Assembly (NCBI GenBank): GCA_905182765.1
Contig: CAJJCV010000001.1
Coordinates: 1-64,000, forward strand
Direction of reading: 5' to 3'
Length of the DNA: 64,000 nt
From: Cryomorphaceae bacterium BACL29 MAG-121220-bin8
GTDB lineage: Bacteria > Bacteroidota > Bacteroidia > Flavobacteriales > Flavobacteriaceae
The notes under the pieces were generated by a model. That model had not been told where the DNA came from, searched no databases, and saw nothing but the letters and a program-made list of their open reading frames with translations. Numbering within the stretch: the first letter of the stretch is position 1; each line of letters begins with the position of its first letter. Positions 10,327 to 23,483 of the stretch are shown here, piece by piece. Made by a program: the position numbers and the translations under genes.

Positions 10327-10677
10327 TTAATTAAGTAAAAAGTATAGAGAAATAATGAAAAACAAACTGTGAAGTACAGCTATTTTTAAGTCTCTAGTCT
10401 GCTTTAAATAAAATGAAATAATAATAGAACAAGCAACTAACAAATGAAAAACAGAGTAAACAATTAAAAAAGGATCATGTAAAACAGAGTTATCGAAATT
10501 TAAAACTACATAAATAGCAAAAACTGCTATACTAAACGCGGCTGCGCCATACATTCTAGCTGTAGTTATTAAGGCGTTATTGGCGTTTTTATAAGCTGAC
10601 ATTAATTTAGGGTTTAGAAACAATACAATACCTACAAGTAATTCTAAAAGGCCAGAGACAAGTATAAATATTTTCAT
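10327..10677 (-). CDS. Small four-helix membrane protein
   Basis: A 116-residue protein with four predicted membrane helices and no catalytic motif. I do not recognise a named family. It clearly resembles residues 1-115 of the sulfatase at 15701-18022. Both share an opening with an acidic residue and GI-V-LF, then a KMYG-AAFS or RMYGAAAFS block near 42-50, FA-Y, then a HDPFLIV or HKPFLII block, and a final HL-LG or H-LF segment ending in LYF. It is transcribed divergently from the hydroxylase operon, with a candidate TetR operator between. A role as a membrane partner or chaperone for island enzymes is inference only. Confidence 0.75.
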   Translation of the reverse strand: MKIFILVSGLLELLVGIVLFLNPKLMSAYKNANNALITTARMYGAAAFSIAVFAIYVVLNFDNSVLHDPFLIVYSVFHLLVACSIIISFYLKQTRDLKIAVLHSLFFIISLYFLLN

Positions 10678-10743: not shown

Positions 10744-11628
10744 ATGATGGAACAAGAAAGTATAAGTAAATTAATTCCTGTAATAGTTCTTTTAATTTTA
10801 GGTACTATAGAAGCTGTAGGCGGATTATATTTTCATGATAAAAGATCTAAAAATGATATAACAATTGAATTAGTTTGTTTAACCATTCTACCTACACTGA
10901 TTCAACCTGGAATTTTAGCTCTTGTATTATTCACTATGGATTCTTGGTTTATTGTTTATGAAGATTATTTTATTAATTCTTATTTTTTATGGCATGTGTT
11001 GGCGTTTCTTATTCTTGATGATTTAACTCAGTATTTGTGGCACAGGTTTTCACATGAAAATCCTTTTATGTGGAAATTACATAGACCTCATCATGTTGTT
11101 GAAGAGATGGGAGTTTTAGTTACTTACAGAAACGCATTTATGTATTATGCTTTTATGCCAGGTCTTTGGTTTTCAGCTATCCTTATTTTTTTAGGAATGA
11201 CAGAAGTTTATTTATATTATTTACCAATAAAAATGACAGTTATAATAGCTGCTCATAGCGAAACTAAATGGGATAGATTTTTATACAAATACAAAATTTT
11301 ACATCCATTAGCTTGGATTGTAGAAAGAACGATATCAACACCTAGTACTCATTATGCTCATCATGGATTGACTGCAGAAGATAAAATTTCAAATCCGAAT
11401 GGAAACTACGGCAACCTACTTTTCTTTTGGGATATTTTATTTGGAACAGCAAAAATTACAAGAAAATATCCAACAAAATTTGGAGCCTGGAATAAAATGA
11501 AAGAACCTTGGTATGTACAATTATTATTTCCTCTAATTAAATCTAAAGATTCTAGAAGCGAGCTTAGTTCTTTTAAAACAAATATGGATTTCGATCCATC
11601 TAAAGACTTCAAAGATTATAACAGTTAA
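10744..11628 (+). CDS. Sterol desaturase / fatty acid hydroxylase family enzyme
   Basis: An integral membrane di-iron oxygenase of the fatty acid hydroxylase superfamily. The histidine boxes are visible: H100-RFS-H104, H113-RP-H116-H117, His171, and H203-YA-H206-H207. Several hydrophobic helices surround them (about 8-30, 44-65, 80-95, 135-165). The length of 294 is normal. These enzymes hydroxylate or desaturate fatty acyl or sterol C-H bonds. It is the first gene of a four-gene plus-strand operon, 5 bases from the following SDR, which could oxidise the alcohol formed. A candidate TetR operator precedes it. Sterol versus alkyl substrate cannot be decided. Confidence 0.9.
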   Translation: MMEQESISKLIPVIVLLILGTIEAVGGLYFHDKRSKNDITIELVCLTILPTLIQPGILALVLFTMDSWFIVYEDYFINSYFLWHVLAFLILDDLTQYLWHRFSHENPFMWKLHRPHHVVEEMGVLVTYRNAFMYYAFMPGLWFSAILIFLGMTEVYLYYLPIKMTVIIAAHSETKWDRFLYKYKILHPLAWIVERTISTPSTHYAHHGLTAEDKISNPNGNYGNLLFFWDILFGTAKITRKYPTKFGAWNKMKEPWYVQLLFPLIKSKDSRSELSSFKTNMDFDPSKDFKDYNS

Positions 11629-11633
11629 ATTTA

Positions 11634-12449
11634 ATGAAAAATCTAAAAAATAAAGTAGTTGTAATAACAGGTGCTGGCTCTGGAATTGGGAGATCACTAG
11701 CAATTAAAATGCATAATAATGGAGCAAAATTAGCTCTTAACGATTTTAATAAGCAATCTCTTGATGAAACATTAAGTATTATTGGTAATATTGATCAAAT
11801 TTATACCGAAGTATTTGACGTTTCTAAAAAAGAAGAATTTTATCAATTTTCAAAAAATGTAGTAAACCATTTTAAAAAGGTAGATGTCGTAATTAATAAT
11901 GCTGGAATTACAAACGGAAGCATTACTGCGGTTGACACAACAATCGAATCTTACGAAAAGGTTTTAGGAGTTAATTTGTGGGGAATGATATATGGCACTT
12001 TAGCTTTTATGCCTGAATTAAGAAAACAAAACGAATCAAGTGTGGTTAATATTTCGAGTATTTGGGGACTCTTAGGATCTCCTTATCAATCTGCTTACAG
12101 CACATCAAAATTTGGCATAAGAGGCTTTACTGAAGCTTTAGCTGCAGAAGAATTATGTAACAACACTGGTGTAGCAGTTACAAGTGTTCATCCTGGTGGA
12201 GTTAAAACTAATATTGTAAGAAACATAGAAGGACAAAATCTAACTGAATTGCAATTAAAAAAATTAGATACTCATTTTCCAACCACTGCAGATAAAACTG
12301 CAGATAAAATTATTTATGCAATTAAAAAAAAGAAGTCTAGAATAGTAATAGGTCCTGACGCTAAATTCATGTACCGTCTATCAAGATTTTCTGAGAGAAT
12401 AACTATGAAATTCTTGGTTAATTGGGCTAAAAAAATGATGAAAATTTAA
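11634..12449 (+). CDS. Short-chain dehydrogenase/reductase
   Basis: An NAD(P)-dependent oxidoreductase of the SDR superfamily. The cofactor motif TGAGSGIG is at 12-19, NNAG at 88-91, and the catalytic set is Ser141/142 with Tyr155 and Lys159 (YSTSK). The segment after Lys159 and the long C-terminal basic tail (about 240-271) resemble SDRs that act on lipophilic alcohols. It follows the hydroxylase by 5 bases and precedes the DUF1214 gene by 2, so the hydroxylase product is a natural substrate guess. Asp37 after beta-2 suggests NAD(H) rather than NADP(H). Substrate unknown. Confidence 0.9.
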   Translation: MKNLKNKVVVITGAGSGIGRSLAIKMHNNGAKLALNDFNKQSLDETLSIIGNIDQIYTEVFDVSKKEEFYQFSKNVVNHFKKVDVVINNAGITNGSITAVDTTIESYEKVLGVNLWGMIYGTLAFMPELRKQNESSVVNISSIWGLLGSPYQSAYSTSKFGIRGFTEALAAEELCNNTGVAVTSVHPGGVKTNIVRNIEGQNLTELQLKKLDTHFPTTADKTADKIIYAIKKKKSRIVIGPDAKFMYRLSRFSERITMKFLVNWAKKMMKI

Positions 12450-12451
12450 AA

Positions 12452-13006
12452 ATGAAAAATAAAATAGTAATATCAGTTATATTATCTATAATTATTGGGG
12501 GTTATACAGCTATTTCAAATATTAATTCTTCAACACAAAACAATGAATTTTCTATTAAAAACGGAAACTGGAAAGTTAATCCAAATATGGATTTAAAAGA
12601 CAGTTACCAAAGAGCTTATATTTCAAGAATTGGAGTTTTTGCATTAGATGATAAAGAAGCGCTTTATTTCTTGTCAAGTAAGGACAATGATGGAAACCCA
12701 TTAACATCAGACTTTGATTATCAAATTATTGGCACACCACCAAAGGGAAGGTATTGGAGTTACACATTATACGGTGAAGATTATTTCTTAGTAAAAAATG
12801 ATGCCAATATTTACACGATAAACAAAGAAAACCTTACTAAAGACAAACCGATTTTAGTATCATCATCTAAAAAAGACATTAATTGGTTACCCTCAGGAAA
12901 TGAAACGAAGTTTCATATTACACTAAGGGTTTATAATCCAGATGAAAGTGTTTATAAAAACTTAGAATCATTAGAGTTACCAATAATTAAAAAAATAGAA
13001 AAATGA
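12452..13006 (+). CDS. DUF1214 domain protein, membrane-anchored
   Basis: A 184-residue protein with an N-terminal membrane anchor or signal (about 5-22) and a DUF1214-like beta domain. I recognise the family by the order of NGNWKVNP, ALYFLSSKDNDGNPL, PPKGRYWSYTLYG, INWLPSG and the closing HITLRVYNPDES. DUF1214 often forms one protein with DUF1254; here the two are separate adjacent genes overlapping by four bases. Function is unknown; in other bacteria such proteins sit beside catabolic and lipid genes. Part of the hydroxylase/SDR operon. Confidence 0.75.
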   Translation: MKNKIVISVILSIIIGGYTAISNINSSTQNNEFSIKNGNWKVNPNMDLKDSYQRAYISRIGVFALDDKEALYFLSSKDNDGNPLTSDFDYQIIGTPPKGRYWSYTLYGEDYFLVKNDANIYTINKENLTKDKPILVSSSKKDINWLPSGNETKFHITLRVYNPDESVYKNLESLELPIIKKIEK

Positions 13007-13518
13007 AGAAGATATTTTTTTACTTAGGGATAATAATGGTAATGAGCATTTGTTCTTATAATTTAACTATACATTACATTCCAAATATTGTATATGCTGT
13101 TTTTCATTATAAAATTGAAAAAAATCAAAATATTAAGGATAATGAAATAAAACATTTTGATATTCCAAGTGACCAGTCTAGAAATGTTGTAATGCCCAAT
13201 CCTGATTTTTTATATTCTACTATTTTTTACGACTTAAGTGAAAAAGATTTAAATATAAATGCAAATATGCCTGACTCTACGTATTGGTCTGTTTCATTCT
13301 ACAAACCAAATACAATAAACTGGTATGTTAAAAATGATCGAGAGTTTGATACAAACAAATTAGATCTTACATTAACTCTTAATGATTCTAAATCAGAGGA
13401 CTTTATAACATCTCCTGTAAAAAAAGGATTTATGATCATCAGAATTCTTGTGGAGAAAAAGGACAAAGAATCTATAAATTATTACAAGTCTCTTCAAAAA
13501 AATATTATACTTAAATAA
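13003..13518 (+). CDS. DUF1254-like protein, membrane-anchored
   Basis: A 171-residue protein with an N-terminal membrane segment (about 3-24). Its core, VVMPNPDFLYSTIFYDLS followed by DSTYWSVSFYKPNTINWYV, matches the DUF1254 pattern in which an N-D-LYS block is followed by a strand-rich region. It is shorter than typical DUF1254 domains, so only part of the family fold is present. It overlaps the DUF1214 gene by four bases and ends the hydroxylase operon. No catalytic function is known for this pair. The family call is from pattern memory. Confidence 0.65.
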   Translation: MKKIFFYLGIIMVMSICSYNLTIHYIPNIVYAVFHYKIEKNQNIKDNEIKHFDIPSDQSRNVVMPNPDFLYSTIFYDLSEKDLNINANMPDSTYWSVSFYKPNTINWYVKNDREFDTNKLDLTLTLNDSKSEDFITSPVKKGFMIIRILVEKKDKESINYYKSLQKNIILK

Positions 13519-13567: not shown

Positions 13568-14725
13568 ATGAAAAAATTAAAACGTAAAATTCAAAAATTG
13601 ATTGTTGGCTTTATGGGTTCTCCAATTAAAATTGACTCGAATGTAAAAAACAGGCAAATCAAAACTATAGCTCCACTTCCAAAAGAAGTTTTCTGGGACA
13701 CTAACGTTAAAATTCATAAAACAAAAAGCGGAATTGAATATGTAAAAACACCTGAAAAATGTTTTTTAAATCTTCCTGATTATAATTTTAATGAAAATTA
13801 TTGTGATATAAATGGACTTAAAATGCATTATATTGATGCTGGTCCTAGCGACGGAAAAATCCTTTTATTGCTCCACGGTCAGCCTGTATGGTCTTTCCTT
13901 TACCGAAAAATGATTCATAAACTTATTGCTAAAGGATACAGGTGTATCGCACCAGATTTAATGGGAATGGGAAAATCAGACAAACCGATTTCAATTAAGT
14001 ACCATATTTACGACACTCATTGCGATAATATTTTATCTTTTATTAAAAAATTAGAACTGAAAAAAATTACTCTTTTTTGTCAAGATTGGGGAAGTTTAAT
14101 AGGGCTTCGAATTGCTGGTGAAAATTCAAATCTTTTCTCTGGTATAATTGCTGCTAATGCTGAAATTCCAAACTTTACTGAAGAATCAAATCCATTATAT
14201 ATCCCAGAACCGTTAAAAATTAATACTAAAATTAAAAGTTTTAAAAAAGCAATGGCATACCATATGTTAAATAATAATGGATTTAATATGAATAACTTTC
14301 AAGTGTGGATTACTTATTGTATTACGACTCCATTTGTTCACATTAGTGAGATTATGGGGCTAAGTTTATCCAGAGACTTCAAAAAAGATCAAAAAATACT
14401 TGATGCCTATGCTGCTCCATTTCCATCATTTATATACATGGCCGGTCCTAGAACCTTACCCTCAATGAATGCTGGGATTACTGGTCAAACTCTAAAAGCA
14501 ATTGATGGGTTGAAAAAATTTAAAAAACCTTTCTTATCTTTAATAGGGCTACAGGACAAGCTTCTTGGAACACCAAGAATTCAGAACAAATTTATTAAAA
14601 TGGTACCAGGAGCTAAAGGTCAGGATCACGAACAGTTCAAAGAAGCCAATCATTTTATTCAAGAGGATATTGGTGAAATAATGGCAAATAGAATGCATAA
14701 GTTTATAGTAAAAAATAAAATTTAA
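13568..14725 (+). CDS. Haloalkane dehalogenase, subfamily I type
   Basis: An alpha/beta hydrolase expected to cleave carbon-halogen bonds by forming an alkyl-enzyme ester. The nucleophile is Asp173 followed by halide-binding Trp174 (CQDWGS), the oxyanion segment is HGQPVWSFLYR (103-113), the acid is Asp330 in GLQDKLLG, and the base His362 in ANHF. A second tryptophan, Trp247 (FQVW), aligns with the cap halide-binding Trp of DhlA, and YAAPFP (281-286) matches the same cap region. The length of 385 exceeds the usual ~300 because of about 45 extra basic N-terminal residues. It opens the dehalogenase/PfpI/sulfatase operon, directly after a palindromic operator. Natural halogenated substrates occur in marine algae; the real substrate is unknown. 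Confidence 0.9.
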   Translation: MKKLKRKIQKLIVGFMGSPIKIDSNVKNRQIKTIAPLPKEVFWDTNVKIHKTKSGIEYVKTPEKCFLNLPDYNFNENYCDINGLKMHYIDAGPSDGKILLLLHGQPVWSFLYRKMIHKLIAKGYRCIAPDLMGMGKSDKPISIKYHIYDTHCDNILSFIKKLELKKITLFCQDWGSLIGLRIAGENSNLFSGIIAANAEIPNFTEESNPLYIPEPLKINTKIKSFKKAMAYHMLNNNGFNMNNFQVWITYCITTPFVHISEIMGLSLSRDFKKDQKILDAYAAPFPSFIYMAGPRTLPSMNAGITGQTLKAIDGLKKFKKPFLSLIGLQDKLLGTPRIQNKFIKMVPGAKGQDHEQFKEANHFIQEDIGEIMANRMHKFIVKNKI

Positions 14726-15597
14726 TGAAGAAAAAAACTTTAAAAATAATCGGACTTATTTCCGTAGTAATAATATTGTTATTTATTGCCTTACCTACAT
14801 TGCTAAATAATGCAGGTTTACATCCAGTCTTTGAAGGAAGTAAAAACTACGATTTCAAAAACACAAAAGCTGTAATTATTTCCACTAGCCATAGTATACT
14901 AAGTAAACCTGGTGAGACAGATGGTAAATTAACTGGAGTATTTGCATCTGAATTAACCGTGCCATATTATGAATTCATTAATTCAGGAATTGAAGTTGAT
15001 ATAGCAAGTATAAATGGAGGTGAAATCCCTATTGATCCTGAATCATTTTTTTATGCAATTAAGACTAAAGAAGATGACAAGTATCTTAACGATGAGATTC
15101 TTCTGAAAAAAGTTAAAAACTCAATATTGATTGATGATTTAGATATAAATCAGTATGATTTAGTATTTATTGCTGGAGGATGGGGAGCAGCATATGATTT
15201 AGGTTACTCTGAAATTCTCGGAAAAAAAATTAGTCAAGCCTATTACAATAAAAAAACTGTAATAGGAGCTGTATGTCACGGAGTTTTGGGTTTTATTAAA
15301 GCCAAAGATTCTTTGGGTAACTTAATTATAGAAAACAAAAGAATGACCGGAGTTACCAATAAACAAATTAAAGAATTAGGAATTGACTTTACACCACTAC
15401 ATCCTGAGGATGAATTAATAAAAGCAGGTGTAATATTTGAGAGTAAAACAGCATTTAGAGATGTATTTGCTAACCTAACAGTATTAGATGAAGAAACTAA
15501 GTTTGTTACTGGACAAAATCAAAATGCAGGTCACGAAACCCCTCAAAAAATGATGGAAATTCTAAATAATAATAATAATAATAATAATAATAGGTAA
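14725..15597 (+). CDS. DJ-1/PfpI family protein, membrane-anchored
   Basis: A class I glutamine-amidotransferase-like protein with an N-terminal membrane helix (about 7-27). The nucleophile elbow is Cys184-His185 in GAVCHGVLG, and FIAGGWGAAYDL (148-159) is the preceding conserved strand. Members include DJ-1, Hsp31 and isocyanide hydratases; the extended N-terminal S-H-S loop is closest to Hsp31-like glyoxalase III types, but I cannot assign activity. Its start codon overlaps the stop of the dehalogenase gene (TAATG), indicating translational coupling. The C-terminus is nine asparagines plus arginine, encoded by nine AAT repeats. Confidence 0.88.
   Translation: MKKKTLKIIGLISVVIILLFIALPTLLNNAGLHPVFEGSKNYDFKNTKAVIISTSHSILSKPGETDGKLTGVFASELTVPYYEFINSGIEVDIASINGGEIPIDPESFFYAIKTKEDDKYLNDEILLKKVKNSILIDDLDINQYDLVFIAGGWGAAYDLGYSEILGKKISQAYYNKKTVIGAVCHGVLGFIKAKDSLGNLIIENKRMTGVTNKQIKELGIDFTPLHPEDELIKAGVIFESKTAFRDVFANLTVLDEETKFVTGQNQNAGHETPQKMMEILNNNNNNNNNR
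15565..15591 (+). repeat. (AAT)9 trinucleotide tract at gene end
   Basis: Nine in-frame AAT codons (15565-15591) encode the poly-asparagine tail of the PfpI protein, then AGG and the stop. Slippage would change tail length without shifting frame. Confidence 0.95.
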
Positions 15598-15701
15598 TGA
15601 TTTATTTTGATGGGCCTCCAACTGGATTTTATGCTAGACGCATTGGCACTCCTTTAATGATAATAGTTTTTATCTTGTCACTAATAAAAATAGAAAAATA
15701 A
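15597..15701 (+). CDS. 34-codon membrane micro-ORF
   Basis: An ATG overlaps the PfpI stop (TAATGA) and the ORF ends in a TAATG that overlaps the sulfatase start, so both ends have the form of translational coupling. The product begins MIYFDGPPTGFYARR and continues with a hydrophobic helix (about residues 19-30), ending KIEK. It fills the only gap in this operon exactly. I do not recognise the family. It could be a real small membrane subunit for the sulfatase, or just a leader that keeps ribosomes moving. Confidence 0.5.
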   Translation: MIYFDGPPTGFYARRIGTPLMIIVFILSLIKIEK

Positions 15702-18022
15702 TGAGAAAATTCTTTCTTTTAACGGCAATTGTTGAAATTTTAGCAGGAATAGTATTGTTTTTCGTTGCTGATAGAATTCCTGAATTTAACAATGCCAGTC
15801 AACTTACTTTAGGTTTTGCTAAAATGTATGGGATAGCCGCATTTTCTCTTGGTCTTTTTGCGTTATATATTTGGAGATTTTTTAATCTTAATAATTTACA
15901 CAAACCTTTTTTAATTATATTTTCAATTTTTAATATCGGAATAGCTTACACAGTTATTCAATCAAACTTGAGTTCTGGGTTTGAAACTCCTGTTCCTGGA
16001 TTATTTCATCTTGTGTTAGGATGTATTGGTTTATATTTTATAATTAAAAAAAAAAGTTTAATAAATAATTTCAGTAAGCTTCTACTCTACTCATTTGCAC
16101 TAATAACAACTGCTTTAGTTACGACTAATTACGTTCTGTTTGCATTACCAATAACAGTAAGTAATGATTCTTTTTTTAGGATAATACTACTTTTTATAAT
16201 TGTTATTTTTCCAGGAATGTATTATTTAAATAAAGTAGCAAATAAAAAACTAAATAGTACAATTAAAAAAATACTTTTTATCTCCATTTCAGGATCCATA
16301 TTAGCTTGGATTGTTCAGCTTATCGAGATTCATCTTTACCATTTTGAAATAGGAGTTAACTCTCCAATAGGATTATTTGAAGATGAATTTACAAGGACCT
16401 GGAAATATTTTTTACCTACACTATTGTTATGCGAAATGATATGGCTTTCCCTTAGAAATAAACTAAGGCTTGTTTATACTGGTTTTTCAATTATTATAAT
16501 TTTTTCATTTATATCATTTTATAATTCATTTGTTTTTCCTGACTCTAATGCTGCATTATATCCAGATCTATCATTCAATAAAACTGATAGTCCTAATGTA
16601 ATTCTAATTGTCGCAGACGATTTAGGGTACAACGACATTTCGTTTAATGGTAATAATTTAATAGAAACTAAAAACATTGATCAAATAGCTAAAAACGGAA
16701 TTAATTTTACAAGAGCTTATGCATCAGCTTCTGTTTGTGCACCATCAAGAGCTGCATTTTTAACAGGCAACTATCAACAGAGATATGGATTTGAATTCTT
16801 GCCGGATCTATTTAATTATAGTCCAAGAGTTAGGAAAGCAGATTTTAATAGATTTGGACATCAAGATAATTTCAAAAAATGGTACGAAAATGATACTCCT
16901 ACTAACAAAAGAGGTTTAAATCCATTTGTGAATACAATAGGAGATTATTTAAAGAAAATGGGCTACCAGACTTCAGTAGTTGGAAAATGGCATATGGGAG
17001 CACATCCGAAATTTAATGCTACAAATTTCGGGTTTGACTCACATTATGGTATTGTAGGTGCTGCATCTTTATACGCACCACTAAATCAAGATAATATTAT
17101 AGAATCTAGACATACATGGGATTTTGCTGATTTTATAACTTGGCAAGTAACTAATTATCACACTTTAGAAAATGGAAAAAAAACAATTCCAAAAAATTCA
17201 GAATATTTAACAGATGTATTTACAAAAAGAGCTGTTGATTACATTAAAGCAAATAAAAATAAACCGTTTTTTCTCCATTTGTCTCATATGGCTCCTCATG
17301 GACCTTTTCAGGCTCAAAAAAAATATTATGACCAATTCACACACATTAAGGATCATAATAAAAGAGTTTATTATGCTATGATAAAGAATTTAGATGATAG
17401 TATTGGTGAAATTAAAAAAGCTCTAAATGACGAAGGAATTGCGGAAAATACATTAATTATTTTTACTAGTGATAACGGGGGAGCTACTTATACAAGAGCT
17501 ACTGATAACTCACCATTTATTGGTGGGAAAATGTCAAATTTTGAAGGTGGAACTGCAGTTCCAATGATGATAGAATGGACTAATAAAATCAAACCTCAAG
17601 GAAATTATGCTAATATGGTCAGTTTACTGGATATTGTACCAACAATACTAGATGCCGTAGACTCACCTTCTCTAAATAATACATTTGATGGGGTTTCATT
17701 GCTGCCATTTATAAATTCGAGTGATAAAAAACCACACAAAGAATTGTTTTGGAAAACAGGTTATATAAAATCGATAATTTCAGATAATTTCAAATTACAT
17801 ATTAACGAAAAAGAAAATTTCAAAACATTAATAGATCTTGAAAATGACCCATCAGAAAAAGTTAATCTAATTTCAAAATACCCTGAAAAAGTTAAAATAC
17901 TTACTGAAAGTTGGGAACAATGGAATAGTACTTTAAAAAAATCCAAATGGGAATCAAATGCTGATGTTTCTATCCCTGTAGATAACTCTGTGAATTCAAA
18001 AAGATATTATTTTCCTTGGTAA
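15701..18022 (+). CDS. Sulfatase fused to a multi-helix membrane domain
   Basis: A type I sulfatase. Residues 1-115 form a four-helix module similar to the protein at 10327-10677, residues 120-275 add further membrane helices, and the sulfatase domain runs from about 298 to 773. The metal site begins IVADDLGYND (303-312), and Cys346 in CAPSRAAFLTG is the residue that must be converted to formylglycine. Later metal ligands include FTSDNGG near 587. Most family members have a signal peptide and 450-600 residues; this one has 773 and stays in the membrane, presumably with the catalytic domain in the periplasm. It ends the dehalogenase operon, so the substrate may carry both sulfate and halogen. 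Confidence 0.9.
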   Translation: MRKFFLLTAIVEILAGIVLFFVADRIPEFNNASQLTLGFAKMYGIAAFSLGLFALYIWRFFNLNNLHKPFLIIFSIFNIGIAYTVIQSNLSSGFETPVPGLFHLVLGCIGLYFIIKKKSLINNFSKLLLYSFALITTALVTTNYVLFALPITVSNDSFFRIILLFIIVIFPGMYYLNKVANKKLNSTIKKILFISISGSILAWIVQLIEIHLYHFEIGVNSPIGLFEDEFTRTWKYFLPTLLLCEMIWLSLRNKLRLVYTGFSIIIIFSFISFYNSFVFPDSNAALYPDLSFNKTDSPNVILIVADDLGYNDISFNGNNLIETKNIDQIAKNGINFTRAYASASVCAPSRAAFLTGNYQQRYGFEFLPDLFNYSPRVRKADFNRFGHQDNFKKWYENDTPTNKRGLNPFVNTIGDYLKKMGYQTSVVGKWHMGAHPKFNATNFGFDSHYGIVGAASLYAPLNQDNIIESRHTWDFADFITWQVTNYHTLENGKKTIPKNSEYLTDVFTKRAVDYIKANKNKPFFLHLSHMAPHGPFQAQKKYYDQFTHIKDHNKRVYYAMIKNLDDSIGEIKKALNDEGIAENTLIIFTSDNGGATYTRATDNSPFIGGKMSNFEGGTAVPMMIEWTNKIKPQGNYANMVSLLDIVPTILDAVDSPSLNNTFDGVSLLPFINSSDKKPHKELFWKTGYIKSIISDNFKLHINEKENFKTLIDLENDPSEKVNLISKYPEKVKILTESWEQWNSTLKKSKWESNADVSIPVDNSVNSKRYYFPW

Positions 18023-18150: not shown

Positions 18151-18798
18151 TTAAAGATTTTTAAAATCTTTAGCTATTTGTTTAGTTATCTCTTTTTCTC
18201 GTTGTTTATATCTATCCAAACCTTTTTTTGTTAAATAAGGATAATGATGTCCCATAATTTCTTTAATAGTATTTGAATATTTAGATTTTGAATCTTCTGA
18301 AACTTCCCATTTAGTAAGTGAAGAATTAATAATTGCCCAATTATTTTTAGCAAAAGTTAGATACTGGTCCTTATATGCTTCTTTTTTCATAAATCCATTT
18401 TCAACTATGATATTGACATAAGTTTTGGTAAATTTTTCATTTCCACTTATTACATCTCTAAAAACTGATTTAGCATTAGGTACTATATTTATAATTTCTA
18501 AAATATCTCTAAAGAAAAACCTATAACTAATTAAAAAAATGAGGTGATTTTTAAAAATTTGATACAAAGACAAATGGTCTAATAATTCCTTTTGCTTTGC
18601 TTCTATTTCAACTAATTTTCTGATCATATAATAGATTATATAATCCATTAAATCTTTTTTTGTTTTAAAATGATAAGTTAAGTTACCTGGACTAATCTTA
18701 TTATATTCTGCTATGTCTTGAAGACGGACATTAGCTAAACCTTTATTATTAAACAACAATATAGAAGACTCTACTATTTTTATTCTTGTACTACTCAC
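18151..18798 (-). CDS. TetR family transcriptional regulator
   Basis: A 215-residue regulator. The N-terminal helix-turn-helix reads ANVRLQDIAEYNKISPGNLT followed by YHFKTKKDLM (about 18-52), the standard TetR pattern; the C-terminal ligand domain is unrelated to any I recognise. It is divergent from the DUF1330/acyl-CoA dehydrogenase operon and convergent with the dehalogenase operon. A perfect TAGTAT-N4-ATACTA repeat lies 27 bases upstream of its start, so autoregulation is likely, and similar sites precede other island operons. A long-chain or isoprenoid acyl-CoA would be a typical inducer for a TetR at this kind of locus, but that is inference. Confidence 0.92.
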   Translation of the reverse strand: MSSTRIKIVESSILLFNNKGLANVRLQDIAEYNKISPGNLTYHFKTKKDLMDYIIYYMIRKLVEIEAKQKELLDHLSLYQIFKNHLIFLISYRFFFRDILEIINIVPNAKSVFRDVISGNEKFTKTYVNIIVENGFMKKEAYKDQYLTFAKNNWAIINSSLTKWEVSEDSKSKYSNTIKEIMGHHYPYLTKKGLDRYKQREKEITKQIAKDFKNL

Positions 18799-18880: not shown

Positions 18881-19714
18881 ATGGTAAATATTATCCCTGA
18901 TCCTATAAAATTATTTAATAACGAAAATACAAATAAAATTGTACTGTTTATATTTTTAAAATTCTCTAAATCTTCAAAAACTGAAAACTTTAAAGATTAT
19001 CTTTTAAAAAAAAAAATAAATACTGTCCATTGGTTTATATGTCAATACACTAATATTGGAAGAAAAGATTATTGGACCAATGCTATAATTATAGAATTTG
19101 AAAATAAAATAGAACTTCAAAAAGCTTACGAAAACAAAATTAAAGTCATTGATATTGAAGCTGTTCAAGTTTTTAATTTGTTTCCTAAAAACCCTCCTAG
19201 ACTATTAATAAATTTTTTAAAATTATTTAGACCTATTGGTTTTTTTTTAGAACTAATTAATTCATCAAGGAAAGAGTTGCAGAATTTAGAAAATAGCAAC
19301 TCAAATTTACTTCCAACAAAAAAACAAGCTGAACGGATTATAAATGAAAAATCTAACGAAAAGGCCTTTATGATTAATCTTTTACAATCGAGAAAAACAG
19401 CTAAATATAAAGACAGCTCTATTTCTATTTCTGGTAGAGAAGCATATTATGAAAAATATGGGGAAATAGCAGCTAAATGTGTAATATTACTTGGAGGTGA
19501 TATTACATATTCCGGAAGAATACTTGGCGACACTTTAATCGAATATAATGTACCTTTAGATACTAAGGGTAATTGGGAAGCTATAGGGATTATTGAATAC
19601 CCAAAAGCCATTAAAATGTTGGATCTTGAAAAGATGCCTGGCTATTCTAAAGCTTTAGTACACAGAGAGGCAGGACTTGAAAAAACTTATAATTTATATG
19701 CAACTAAAAACTAA
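18881..19714 (+). CDS. DUF1330 domain protein with N-terminal extension
   Basis: A 277-residue protein whose C-terminal third (about 185-275) has the DUF1330 pattern: AFMINLLQSRK, then GREAYYEKYGE, GGDITYSGR, WEAIGIIEYP and MPGYSKALVHREAGL. DUF1330 has a small ferredoxin-like dimeric fold. The first ~115 residues (KIVLFIFLKFS ... AIIIEFENKIELQKAY) look like a second, diverged copy of that fold, joined by a lysine-rich linker. It is the first gene of the long operon and directly follows the TetR operator. The biochemical role is unknown; related small dimeric barrels include isomerases, cyclases and monooxygenases. Confidence 0.75.
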   Translation: MVNIIPDPIKLFNNENTNKIVLFIFLKFSKSSKTENFKDYLLKKKINTVHWFICQYTNIGRKDYWTNAIIIEFENKIELQKAYENKIKVIDIEAVQVFNLFPKNPPRLLINFLKLFRPIGFFLELINSSRKELQNLENSNSNLLPTKKQAERIINEKSNEKAFMINLLQSRKTAKYKDSSISISGREAYYEKYGEIAAKCVILLGGDITYSGRILGDTLIEYNVPLDTKGNWEAIGIIEYPKAIKMLDLEKMPGYSKALVHREAGLEKTYNLYATKN

Positions 19715-21824: not shown

Positions 21825-23483
21825 ATGGAACATAAATTTTTAAAAATTTTATTAAGCTTCGTTTTTATTGCTATTGGAACTGGTATTTGGTTTTCCCAAA
21901 ACTGGTACAAAATGCCAAAATATATTTCCAACTTCACAAACCCAACTTATGAAAATATTGCAATTGAGTGGGAAAATGGACCTGAAAGCAGAACAAGCTC
22001 TAAACCGAATATAATTGTAGTTTTAATAGATGACTTAGGTTTTAATCAAATTAGTTCTTATGGTGGAGGAATGGCAAATGGTAAGTTTAAAACACCCAAT
22101 ATTGATAAGTTAGCAAACGATGGAGTTTTATGTACAAATGGATATTCATCAAGTCCAGTTTGTTCACCGTCAAGAGCATCTCTTTTAACTGGAAGATTCG
22201 CTACCAGATTTGGATATGAGTTTACTCCAACCACTTCTAGTATGATGAAAGCAGTTAATGTTTTTTCAAAGAAAAATGAAGTTGTTGATGGCATTTATCA
22301 TAACGACAGATCAGAAAATATTATTGACATTGAACAAATGGGAATACCTCAGTCTGAAAGAACCATTGCAGAAATGCTAAAGCCTGAGGGTTATCATAAC
22401 ATTCATATTGGAAAATGGCACTTAGGTCACTCAAAAGACTTTTTGCCAAGACTTCATGGATTTGACGAAAGTCTTAGAATGGATCAAGGCTCTTTATTTT
22501 TACCTGAAGATGATGATAATGTTGTTAATGCAAAAATTGACTTTGATCCGATTGATAAACTTCTTTGGGGAAATCTGCCATATGCAGTTAATTTTAATGA
22601 AGGATCAAGAATAAAACCTGATGGGCATTTGACCGAATATTTAACAAATGAAGCAGTAAAGACAATTGAAAAAAACAAAAACAGACCCTTCTTTTTATAC
22701 TTAGCCTATTGGGCAGTTCACAGTCCATTACAAGCTAAAAAAGAAGATTATGAAAAATTATCTTTTATTGAAAATCATGAGGAAAGAGTTTTAGCATCTA
22801 TGGTTATGACTGTTGATAGAGGAGTTGGTAAAATTAAAGAAGCACTGAAAAAAAACAATATTGATGACAATACTATAATTATTTTCACAAGTGACAACGG
22901 TGCTCCTGGATACATAGGGTTACCCGATTTAAATAAACCATACAGAGGATGGAAACTTACTCATTTTGAAGGTGGTGTTCATGTTCCATTTATTGTAAGC
23001 TATCCAGGAAAAATTCCAAAGGGTACAACTTACAACGGAAGAGTTTCTAATTTAGATATATTCTCAACTTTAGCAAATGTAGCAGGAGTTGATATGAGTA
23101 GAGAAGATCTTTTAGAAATAGAATTCGATGGGGTAAACATACTTCCTTATTTAAGTGGAGAAAATGAAGGTGAACCAGAAAGAATTTTATTTAATAAATC
23201 TGGAGATTATTCATTTTTAATTAAAGACGGATGGAAACTACAAGTAGATTTAGTTCAAAATAAAAAATGGCTATATAATTTAAACGAAGACCCTACTGAA
23301 CAGTTAGACTTAAGTGAAACTAATTTTATAAAACTAAATAAACTTGAAGAAATATTAAATAATAAATTATCTGAACAAGTCAAACCAATATGGCCTAGTT
23401 TGCTAGACTGGCCTATTTTTGTTGATAAAACTTTGGATCAAGAAGTAAATAATAAAGATGAGTATATATTTTGGGCTAACTAA
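21825..23483 (+). CDS. Sulfatase with N-terminal membrane anchor
   Basis: A type I sulfatase of 552 residues, anchored by one helix (about 7-24). The metal-binding start is VVLIDDLGFNQ (65-75), the formylglycine precursor is Cys113 in CSPSRASLLTG, then GKWHLGHS near 193 and FTSDNGAPG near 350. The catalytic core is complete. It lies between the nitronate monooxygenase and an SDR within the long operon, which is unusual: sulfatases normally travel with polysaccharide-degradation genes, while here all neighbours act on acyl-CoA or alcohols. A sulfate ester on a lipid is the simplest reading. Confidence 0.92.
   Translation: MEHKFLKILLSFVFIAIGTGIWFSQNWYKMPKYISNFTNPTYENIAIEWENGPESRTSSKPNIIVVLIDDLGFNQISSYGGGMANGKFKTPNIDKLANDGVLCTNGYSSSPVCSPSRASLLTGRFATRFGYEFTPTTSSMMKAVNVFSKKNEVVDGIYHNDRSENIIDIEQMGIPQSERTIAEMLKPEGYHNIHIGKWHLGHSKDFLPRLHGFDESLRMDQGSLFLPEDDDNVVNAKIDFDPIDKLLWGNLPYAVNFNEGSRIKPDGHLTEYLTNEAVKTIEKNKNRPFFLYLAYWAVHSPLQAKKEDYEKLSFIENHEERVLASMVMTVDRGVGKIKEALKKNNIDDNTIIIFTSDNGAPGYIGLPDLNKPYRGWKLTHFEGGVHVPFIVSYPGKIPKGTTYNGRVSNLDIFSTLANVAGVDMSREDLLEIEFDGVNILPYLSGENEGEPERILFNKSGDYSFLIKDGWKLQVDLVQNKKWLYNLNEDPTEQLDLSETNFIKLNKLEEILNNKLSEQVKPIWPSLLDWPIFVDKTLDQEVNNKDEYIFWAN

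Follow-up and report, generated by a model that had tools for sequence, protein, structure and literature searches.

The gene at 13568..14725 (plus strand) of the window, as we call the whole 64,000-nt stretch of DNA analyzed here, encodes a long-cap haloalkane dehalogenase (HLD) of subfamily HLD-I that, on balance, is probably bound to the inner membrane by a basic amphipathic helix and hydrolyzes the carbon–halogen bonds of lipophilic organohalides. The ORF list and the translation confirm the previously annotated frame, which opens with ATG and comprises 385 residues. Three features absent from the first-pass annotation, namely an insertion of ~40 residues in the cap, the coupling of this insertion to N-terminal membrane features, and a cross-phylum pairing of HLD and sulfatase genes, turn out to be more telling than the points raised there. 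To our knowledge, few haloalkane dehalogenases have a known natural substrate. The substrates tested so far are largely synthetic, according to PMC10503415, and the existence of a long-cap, membrane-linked branch together with the recurrent sulfatase pairing points to a natural substrate class.

The assignment to HLD-I is firm, because the catalytic pentad, the family profile score, and the fold matches agree. The pentad, located by alignments, consists of the nucleophile D173 and the adjacent first halide tryptophan W174 (14084..14089), the second halide tryptophan W247 in the cap (14306..14308), the catalytic acid D330 (14555..14557), which in the model lies three residues past the strand 322–327, and the catalytic base H362 (14651..14653), all on the plus strand. 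W247 presumably corresponds to W175 in DhlA numbering, and we take D260 to be the DhlA counterpart of D330. All five residues are among the 15 invariant columns of a 16-sequence alignment (the window protein, the DhlA-type protein L101 from a Xanthobacter flavus plasmid, and 14 other relatives) and are also invariant across 12 sequences of the genus, while in a 37-sequence alignment D173, W174, W247, and H362 are invariant and D330 is nearly so. The DhlA pattern that had been proposed from the sequence is thereby borne out, as is the YAAPFP cap segment (residues 281–286, 14408..14425, plus strand), which is the same in L101 (AYAAPFP). The alignment with L101 further places Q105 within an HGQPVW motif (13874..13891, plus strand), in a column that is occupied by Glu in DhlA and by Asn in HLD-II and HLD-III.

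The protein scores 286.7 bits against the NCBIfam haloalkane dehalogenase model NF002043, above the curated cut-off of 265, and 118.3 bits against NF002938, which we take to be the HLD-II model, far under the cut-off of 241. Membership in HLD-II is rejected on the basis of this low score and of Q105 in place of Asn, and membership in HLD-III on the basis of the same substitution and the presence of the cap Trp. The halide-binding residues of HLDs are either two Trp or one Trp and one Asn, as stated in PMC10503415.

By sequence, the closest solved structures are 6f9o, 4mj3, 5esr, and DhlA. An AlphaFold2 model built with 37 sequences (mean pLDDT 86.7, pTM 0.86) is matched best in VIA-align by DpcA (Z 42.0, rmsd 1.5, 293 residues aligned), DmrA (Z 41.9), and DccA (Z 40.2). 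The 12 best rows are all HLD-I, with Z from 42.0 to 37.1, and are followed by the HLD-III enzyme DhmeA (33.0), the ancestral AncHLD5 (32.6), and HLD-II enzymes (at most 32.1). The solved HLD-I enzymes DpcA, DmrA, DccA, DhlA, DppA, and DpaA (Z 42.0 to 37.4) share the fold and the full pentad. The suggested overlay check against DhlA was run as a fold match (Z 37.6, rmsd 2.2, 296 aligned) and a sequence alignment, which places W247 at the DhlA-type Trp. The sequence evidence thus supports a complete HLD-I catalytic machinery, while dehalogenation itself is a prediction.

HLD-I enzymes are scarce in Bacteroidota, as the first-pass annotation had held: in an even draw of 395 genomes across the phylum, only five, the window's own included, exceed the NF002043 cut-off. 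The other four matches are a long-cap protein of lipoprotein type (L106) and three short-cap proteins (L103–L105). Within the genus, the gene is found in 13 of 22 genomes (51–93% complete, the window's own counted). Of the other copies, 11 are 78–93% identical along almost their entire length, and one is a fragment at a contig edge. No relatives were found in viral contigs, despite 46 pattern matches. The HLD-I proteins of Saprospiraceae/Lewinella MAGs (L032–L040) are 55–59% identical to the window protein, a match that in complete sequences spans almost the entire protein, N-terminal extension included. Their TetR, DJ-1, and sulfatase neighbors are like those of the window, but their amphipathic helix is weaker. 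The HLD-I proteins of Halieaceae, Hyphomonadaceae, Myxococcota, and SAR86 (L041–L046, L049, L072, L077–L089) also have a long cap and an extension; they differ in that their N-terminus is transmembrane-like instead of amphipathic, and their identity of 34–39% refers to the catalytic part. Two of the loci, L079 and L084, carry Bifidobacterium breve in their titles, which are probably wrong, as their HLDs match like those of acidimicrobial MAGs.

The cap insertion of ~40 residues (about residues 203–243, 14174..14296, plus strand) is evident from the spacing between N197 and W247, which amounts to 49 residues in the window protein, 26 in DhlA, and 15–17 in most short-cap relatives. We surveyed this spacing in 66 proteins, namely the window protein, L101–L106, and 60 of the 69 loci L032–L100 minus L066 (the survey omits L038, L040, L048, L066, L067, L075, L079, L081, L084, and L085). 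The proteins fall into two classes, 24 with 41–58 residues and 42 with 15–26 residues. An N-terminal extension of at least 34 residues is present in all 24 long-cap proteins, while any extension in the 42 short-cap proteins is 15 residues long at most. The window protein and seven Saprospiraceae-type proteins have an amphipathic extension. A transmembrane-like one occurs in seven SAR86 proteins and in eight others, from Halieaceae, Hyphomonadaceae, Myxococcota, and an unclassified proteobacterium, and the extension of L106 bears a lipobox.

In a quick tree, the cap state changes twice. A single long-cap clade survives the AU test (p 0.503), and a tree without three long-branch rows shows only one change; a double origin of the long cap and the extension was therefore dropped. 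Most simply, this would be one long-cap, membrane-associated HLD-I branch, in which an amphipathic helix takes the place of the membrane span in the lineage of the window. In two long-cap SAR86 proteins, L078 and L083, the catalytic acid Asp is replaced by Glu, and the residue aligned with Q105 is Leu.

The dehalogenase gene is likely part of a seven-gene operon on the plus strand, as suggested by the tight gene spacing. The likely first gene encodes a member of the FA_hydroxylase/sterol desaturase family (10744..11628, PF04116, present in 10/11 genus loci) and is followed by genes for a short-chain dehydrogenase (11634..12449, PF00106), a DUF1214 protein (12452..13006, PF06742), and a DUF1254 protein (13003..13518, PF06863), the gaps between these four being 5, 2, and −4 bases. 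After a further 49 bases comes the dehalogenase gene, whose last base is the first base (14725) of a DJ-1/PfpI family gene (14725..15597, PF01965), the product of which has an N-terminal hydrophobic segment. The last gene encodes a sulfatase with an N-terminal membrane domain (15701..18022, PF00884, CAPSR motif), which agrees with the earlier placement of a sulfatase in the same operon. Beyond it lie a TetR regulator gene on the minus strand (18151..18798, PF13972/PF00440), a gene for a 277-aa protein (18881..19714, plus strand) that gives no hit in a Pfam scan and whose tblastn matches adjoin the HLD gene in L032, L033, L052, L063, and L066, and, in the same catabolic region, a second sulfatase gene (21825..23483, plus strand, PF00884, CSPSR motif). 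Pfam scans of the neighborhood also find a flavin monooxygenase (PF00743), short-chain dehydrogenases, an acyl-CoA synthetase, and a carboxyl transferase. The window holds four sulfatase genes, starting at 15701, 21825, 40755, and 44645, and the window's own genome has 10 in 1.4 Mb by whole-genome search. The 3′ end of the DJ-1 gene (15560–15597) has about nine Asn codons in a row, a simple repeat that could slip.

In 11/11 genus loci, the HLD gene adjoins the DJ-1 gene, which is followed by the sulfatase gene; DUF1214 and DUF1254 are present in 10/11. The nine Saprospiraceae-type loci have DJ-1 in seven cases, a sulfatase in seven, and, in six, a divergent TetR homolog just upstream of HLD that is 38–45% identical to the regulator of the window, while no partner genes are in view at L035 and L038. 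From these shared genes it follows that the regulator, dehalogenase, DJ-1, and sulfatase are kept together across two distant Bacteroidota lineages. A DUF1254–DUF1214 fusion lies near the HLD gene in L032; our searches found no literature on these two domains together.

The fusions of the membrane domain differ between the two lineages, since in the Saprospiraceae-type loci the domain is joined to DJ-1 (a 413-aa protein in L037) and in the window to the sulfatase, so that, as judged from sequence similarity, one membrane domain appears to be attached to different proteins encoded in the cluster. At 10327–10677 on the minus strand lies the gene for a 116-aa membrane protein that has no Pfam hit and resembles the N-terminal parts of both the window sulfatase (15701–18022) and the Saprospiraceae DJ-1 protein (L037, 7240–8481).

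The association with sulfatases extends beyond Bacteroidota. A profile built from nine sulfatases and run on the fetched flanks of 69 loci finds a sulfatase in 25 of them. Enrichment within flanks of up to 10 kb was estimated for 64 of the 69 loci with a Poisson model on the genome-wide sulfatase counts (L048 and L097–L100, which have no such count, were left out). A sulfatase is present in 7/9 Saprospiraceae-type loci (0.52 expected), 3/7 SAR86 loci (0.17 expected), and 11/22 actinomycete loci (0.98 expected), which is far above chance in all three groups. The sulfatase types differ, being mostly CAPSR in Bacteroidota and CSPTR in SAR86 and next to the actinomycete HLDs. A pairing across all HLD-I is not claimed, as Mycobacterium HLD-I gives 0/3 (0.08 expected) and the mixed group of other loci only a weak signal.

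Acyl-CoA dehydrogenase genes served as a control; a sulfatase lies no more than 10 kb away in 1/100 cases (six actinomycete genomes) and 0/40 cases (three SAR86 genomes), all nine genomes being ones that already held an HLD–sulfatase pair. A less selected sample, drawn without use of the peptide pattern, comprised 25 genomes from a single actinomycete order and yielded 20 HLD-I copies in 16 of them; a sulfatase lies within 3 kb of 5/20 copies (0.23 expected). The P-values, 0.04 for the mixed group (3/23, 0.78 expected) and 0.0006 for the same actinomycete order without the center genome (3/16, 0.17 expected), serve as guides only, since related genomes are counted as independent and the general clustering of catabolic genes is ignored. 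The paired actinomycete HLDs are short-cap, so that pairing with a sulfatase and possession of a membrane extension are separate traits.

In SAR86 L082, genes for HLD-I (302.4 bits), HLD-II (312.8 bits vs a cut-off of 241), a DUF1330 protein, and the only sulfatase of the 1.0 Mb genome lie within 4.6 kb. On one strand of actinomycete L063, an HLD gene is followed by a sulfatase gene, then by an HLD-like gene (234.1 bits, short of the cut-off of 265) and a second sulfatase gene. DUF1330-like proteins recur beside HLD-I (window 18881–19714, L063 9291–10019, L082 12446–12754), of which only the L082 protein has a PF07045 hit, those of the window and L063 being linked by weak similarity. The stretch 9878–16822 of L082 also encodes an FAD hydroxylase of aromatic type along with an FAA hydrolase. 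In the partly accessible literature found on HLDs with sulfatases, gene clusters, and SAR86, there is no report of HLD–sulfatase pairing.

The neighboring FA hydroxylase, dehydrogenase, monooxygenase, acyl-CoA synthetase, and carboxyl transferase suggest the breakdown of a lipid-like chain, and the neighboring sulfatases suggest sulfate esters. The operon may thus serve the catabolism of lipophilic organohalides. Halogenated organosulfates are possible substrates, for instance the algal chlorosulfolipids, which agree with both the lipid-type neighbors and the sulfatases. Coastal seawater contains chlorosulfolipids bearing as many as 11 chlorines and two sulfate groups, and chrysophytes are mentioned as fresh-water producers (PMC13413282); neither dehalogenase nor degrad- appears as a word in that paper. 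A tentative version of the pathway, which we hold as a minority possibility, has the sulfatases desulfating these lipids, the membrane-docked, long-cap dehalogenase dechlorinating their chains, and the acyl enzymes oxidizing the remainder. Some actinomycete loci come from lake MAGs according to their record titles (Erken, L053; Baikal, L062), a fit to the chlorosulfolipid idea that is only suggestive.

A partial analogue is the slfCHSL cluster for SDS degradation in Psychrobacter pP62BP1, which, as far as the available text goes, combines a sulfatase, alcohol and aldehyde oxidation, and an acyl-CoA synthetase under a dedicated regulator, but includes no dehalogenase and has a regulator of the AraC/XylS family (PMC10779009). 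Among the literature matches listed, a non-exhaustive set searched for chlorosulfolipid breakdown by a bacterial dehalogenase, there was no chlorosulfolipid paper. If the link holds, a single enzyme panel would suffice to test what becomes of these lipids in the sea, and the HLD–sulfatase pairing in SAR86 and lake actinomycetes would make the catabolism of halogenated organosulfates a widespread aquatic process.

The main rival is a general detoxification of algal halocarbons, in which the dehalogenase would strip the halogens from small, volatile halocarbons or deal with algal stress halogens, while the sulfatases would act on an unrelated substrate released by the same algae. The abundance of sulfatases in the genus (7–22 in each of the six genomes searched) agrees with this, as do reports, cited here from partial texts, that, of the dehalogenation genes in macroalgal metagenomes, those for HLDs are the most abundant (PMC10919026) and that an HLD-like gene of Zobellia, located by a TetR gene and a carrageenase, is upregulated on carrageenan, its suggested role being to cope with halogenated algal compounds (PMC5613140). 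However, the pairing is also found in SAR86 genomes with one or two sulfatases, and three lineages pair HLD with different sulfatase types. Moreover, the scanned genes around HLD are of lipid type, with no polysaccharide lyase or glycoside hydrolase among them, and an enzyme for such tiny substrates would not be expected to have a long cap and a membrane tail. We therefore regard detoxification as rather unlikely.

In the preferred reading, the enzyme is held at the membrane by the N-terminal extension, residues 1–55 (13568..13732, plus strand), which the model resolves into a helix at 2–15 and a low-confidence linker. The first-pass annotation described about 45 basic residues; a basic extension indeed exists, but it measures ~55 residues, of which 14 are Lys or Arg vs 3 Asp or Glu. 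It has no counterpart in the solved HLD-I enzymes and falls outside all alignments with solved HLDs, the VIA-align matches beginning at model residue 55 or 56. The pLDDT is 68 for residues 1–10, 51 for 11–20, and 81 for 41–50, and drops below 50 at 17–35. The first 16 residues are amphipathic (hydrophobic moment 0.64, net charge +6, shuffle p 0.011). The same test gives p ≤0.05 in 15/18 sequences, the support being weak for some orthologs (L004 0.105, L033 0.080, L036 0.051). No transmembrane-like segment was found in the extension, the best 18-residue Kyte–Doolittle mean being 0.47 vs 1.61–3.09 in the anchored relatives, and by the same hydropathy value it is not a signal peptide, in agreement with the first-pass annotation.

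The extension is conserved in the genus and common to the seven complete Saprospiraceae-type proteins of the 37-sequence alignment, with a conserved APLPKEVFWD stretch (residues 35–44) in both. In comparisons of the window gene with nine genus orthologs, its dN/dS is 0.13–0.64 in the seven computable pairs, with 0.05–0.10 for the core. Since all seven values are below 1, the extension reads as translated and constrained, though less than the core. Taken together, membrane association of the protein through the extension is plausible. The extension could instead be an arm for protein–protein docking or oligomerization, for which APLPKEVFWD as a possible docking motif and the pLDDT of 81 in block 41–50 would speak, but this is doubtful, considering that the other 16 long-cap proteins, that is, those besides the window and Saprospiraceae-type ones, all have a transmembrane-like or lipobox N-terminus. 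Among the literature matches listed, nothing relevant to membrane-bound or exported dehalogenases appeared in the titles or the beginnings of the abstracts.

According to the mechanism we propose, the basic amphipathic helix would dock the enzyme on the inner membrane, where D173 would attack the halide-bearing carbon, with the leaving halide held by W174 and W247. H362, assisted by D330, would then activate a water molecule to free the alcohol, which the dehydrogenase of the operon and the nearby fatty-acyl enzymes could oxidize. Judging from the neighboring sulfatases, the substrate or its precursor may also bear sulfate esters.

Flavin monooxygenases of the PF00743 kind can make esters or lactones. 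A reaction other than dehalogenation, e.g., one that hydrolyzes or decarboxylates a lactone or ester intermediate in lipid breakdown, would find some support in the PF00743 gene near the HLD, in its homologs located just after HLD in L032 and L033, and in the HLD-III enzyme OleB, a β-lactone decarboxylase which, in the available text, shows that a complete pentad is no guarantee of dehalogenation (PMC10503415), but is improbable given that both halide Trp residues are invariant over all aligned relatives, as opposed to the Asn–Trp pair of HLD-III, and that in SAR86 L082 the partner of the HLD-I is an HLD-II that scores above the equivalog cut-off.
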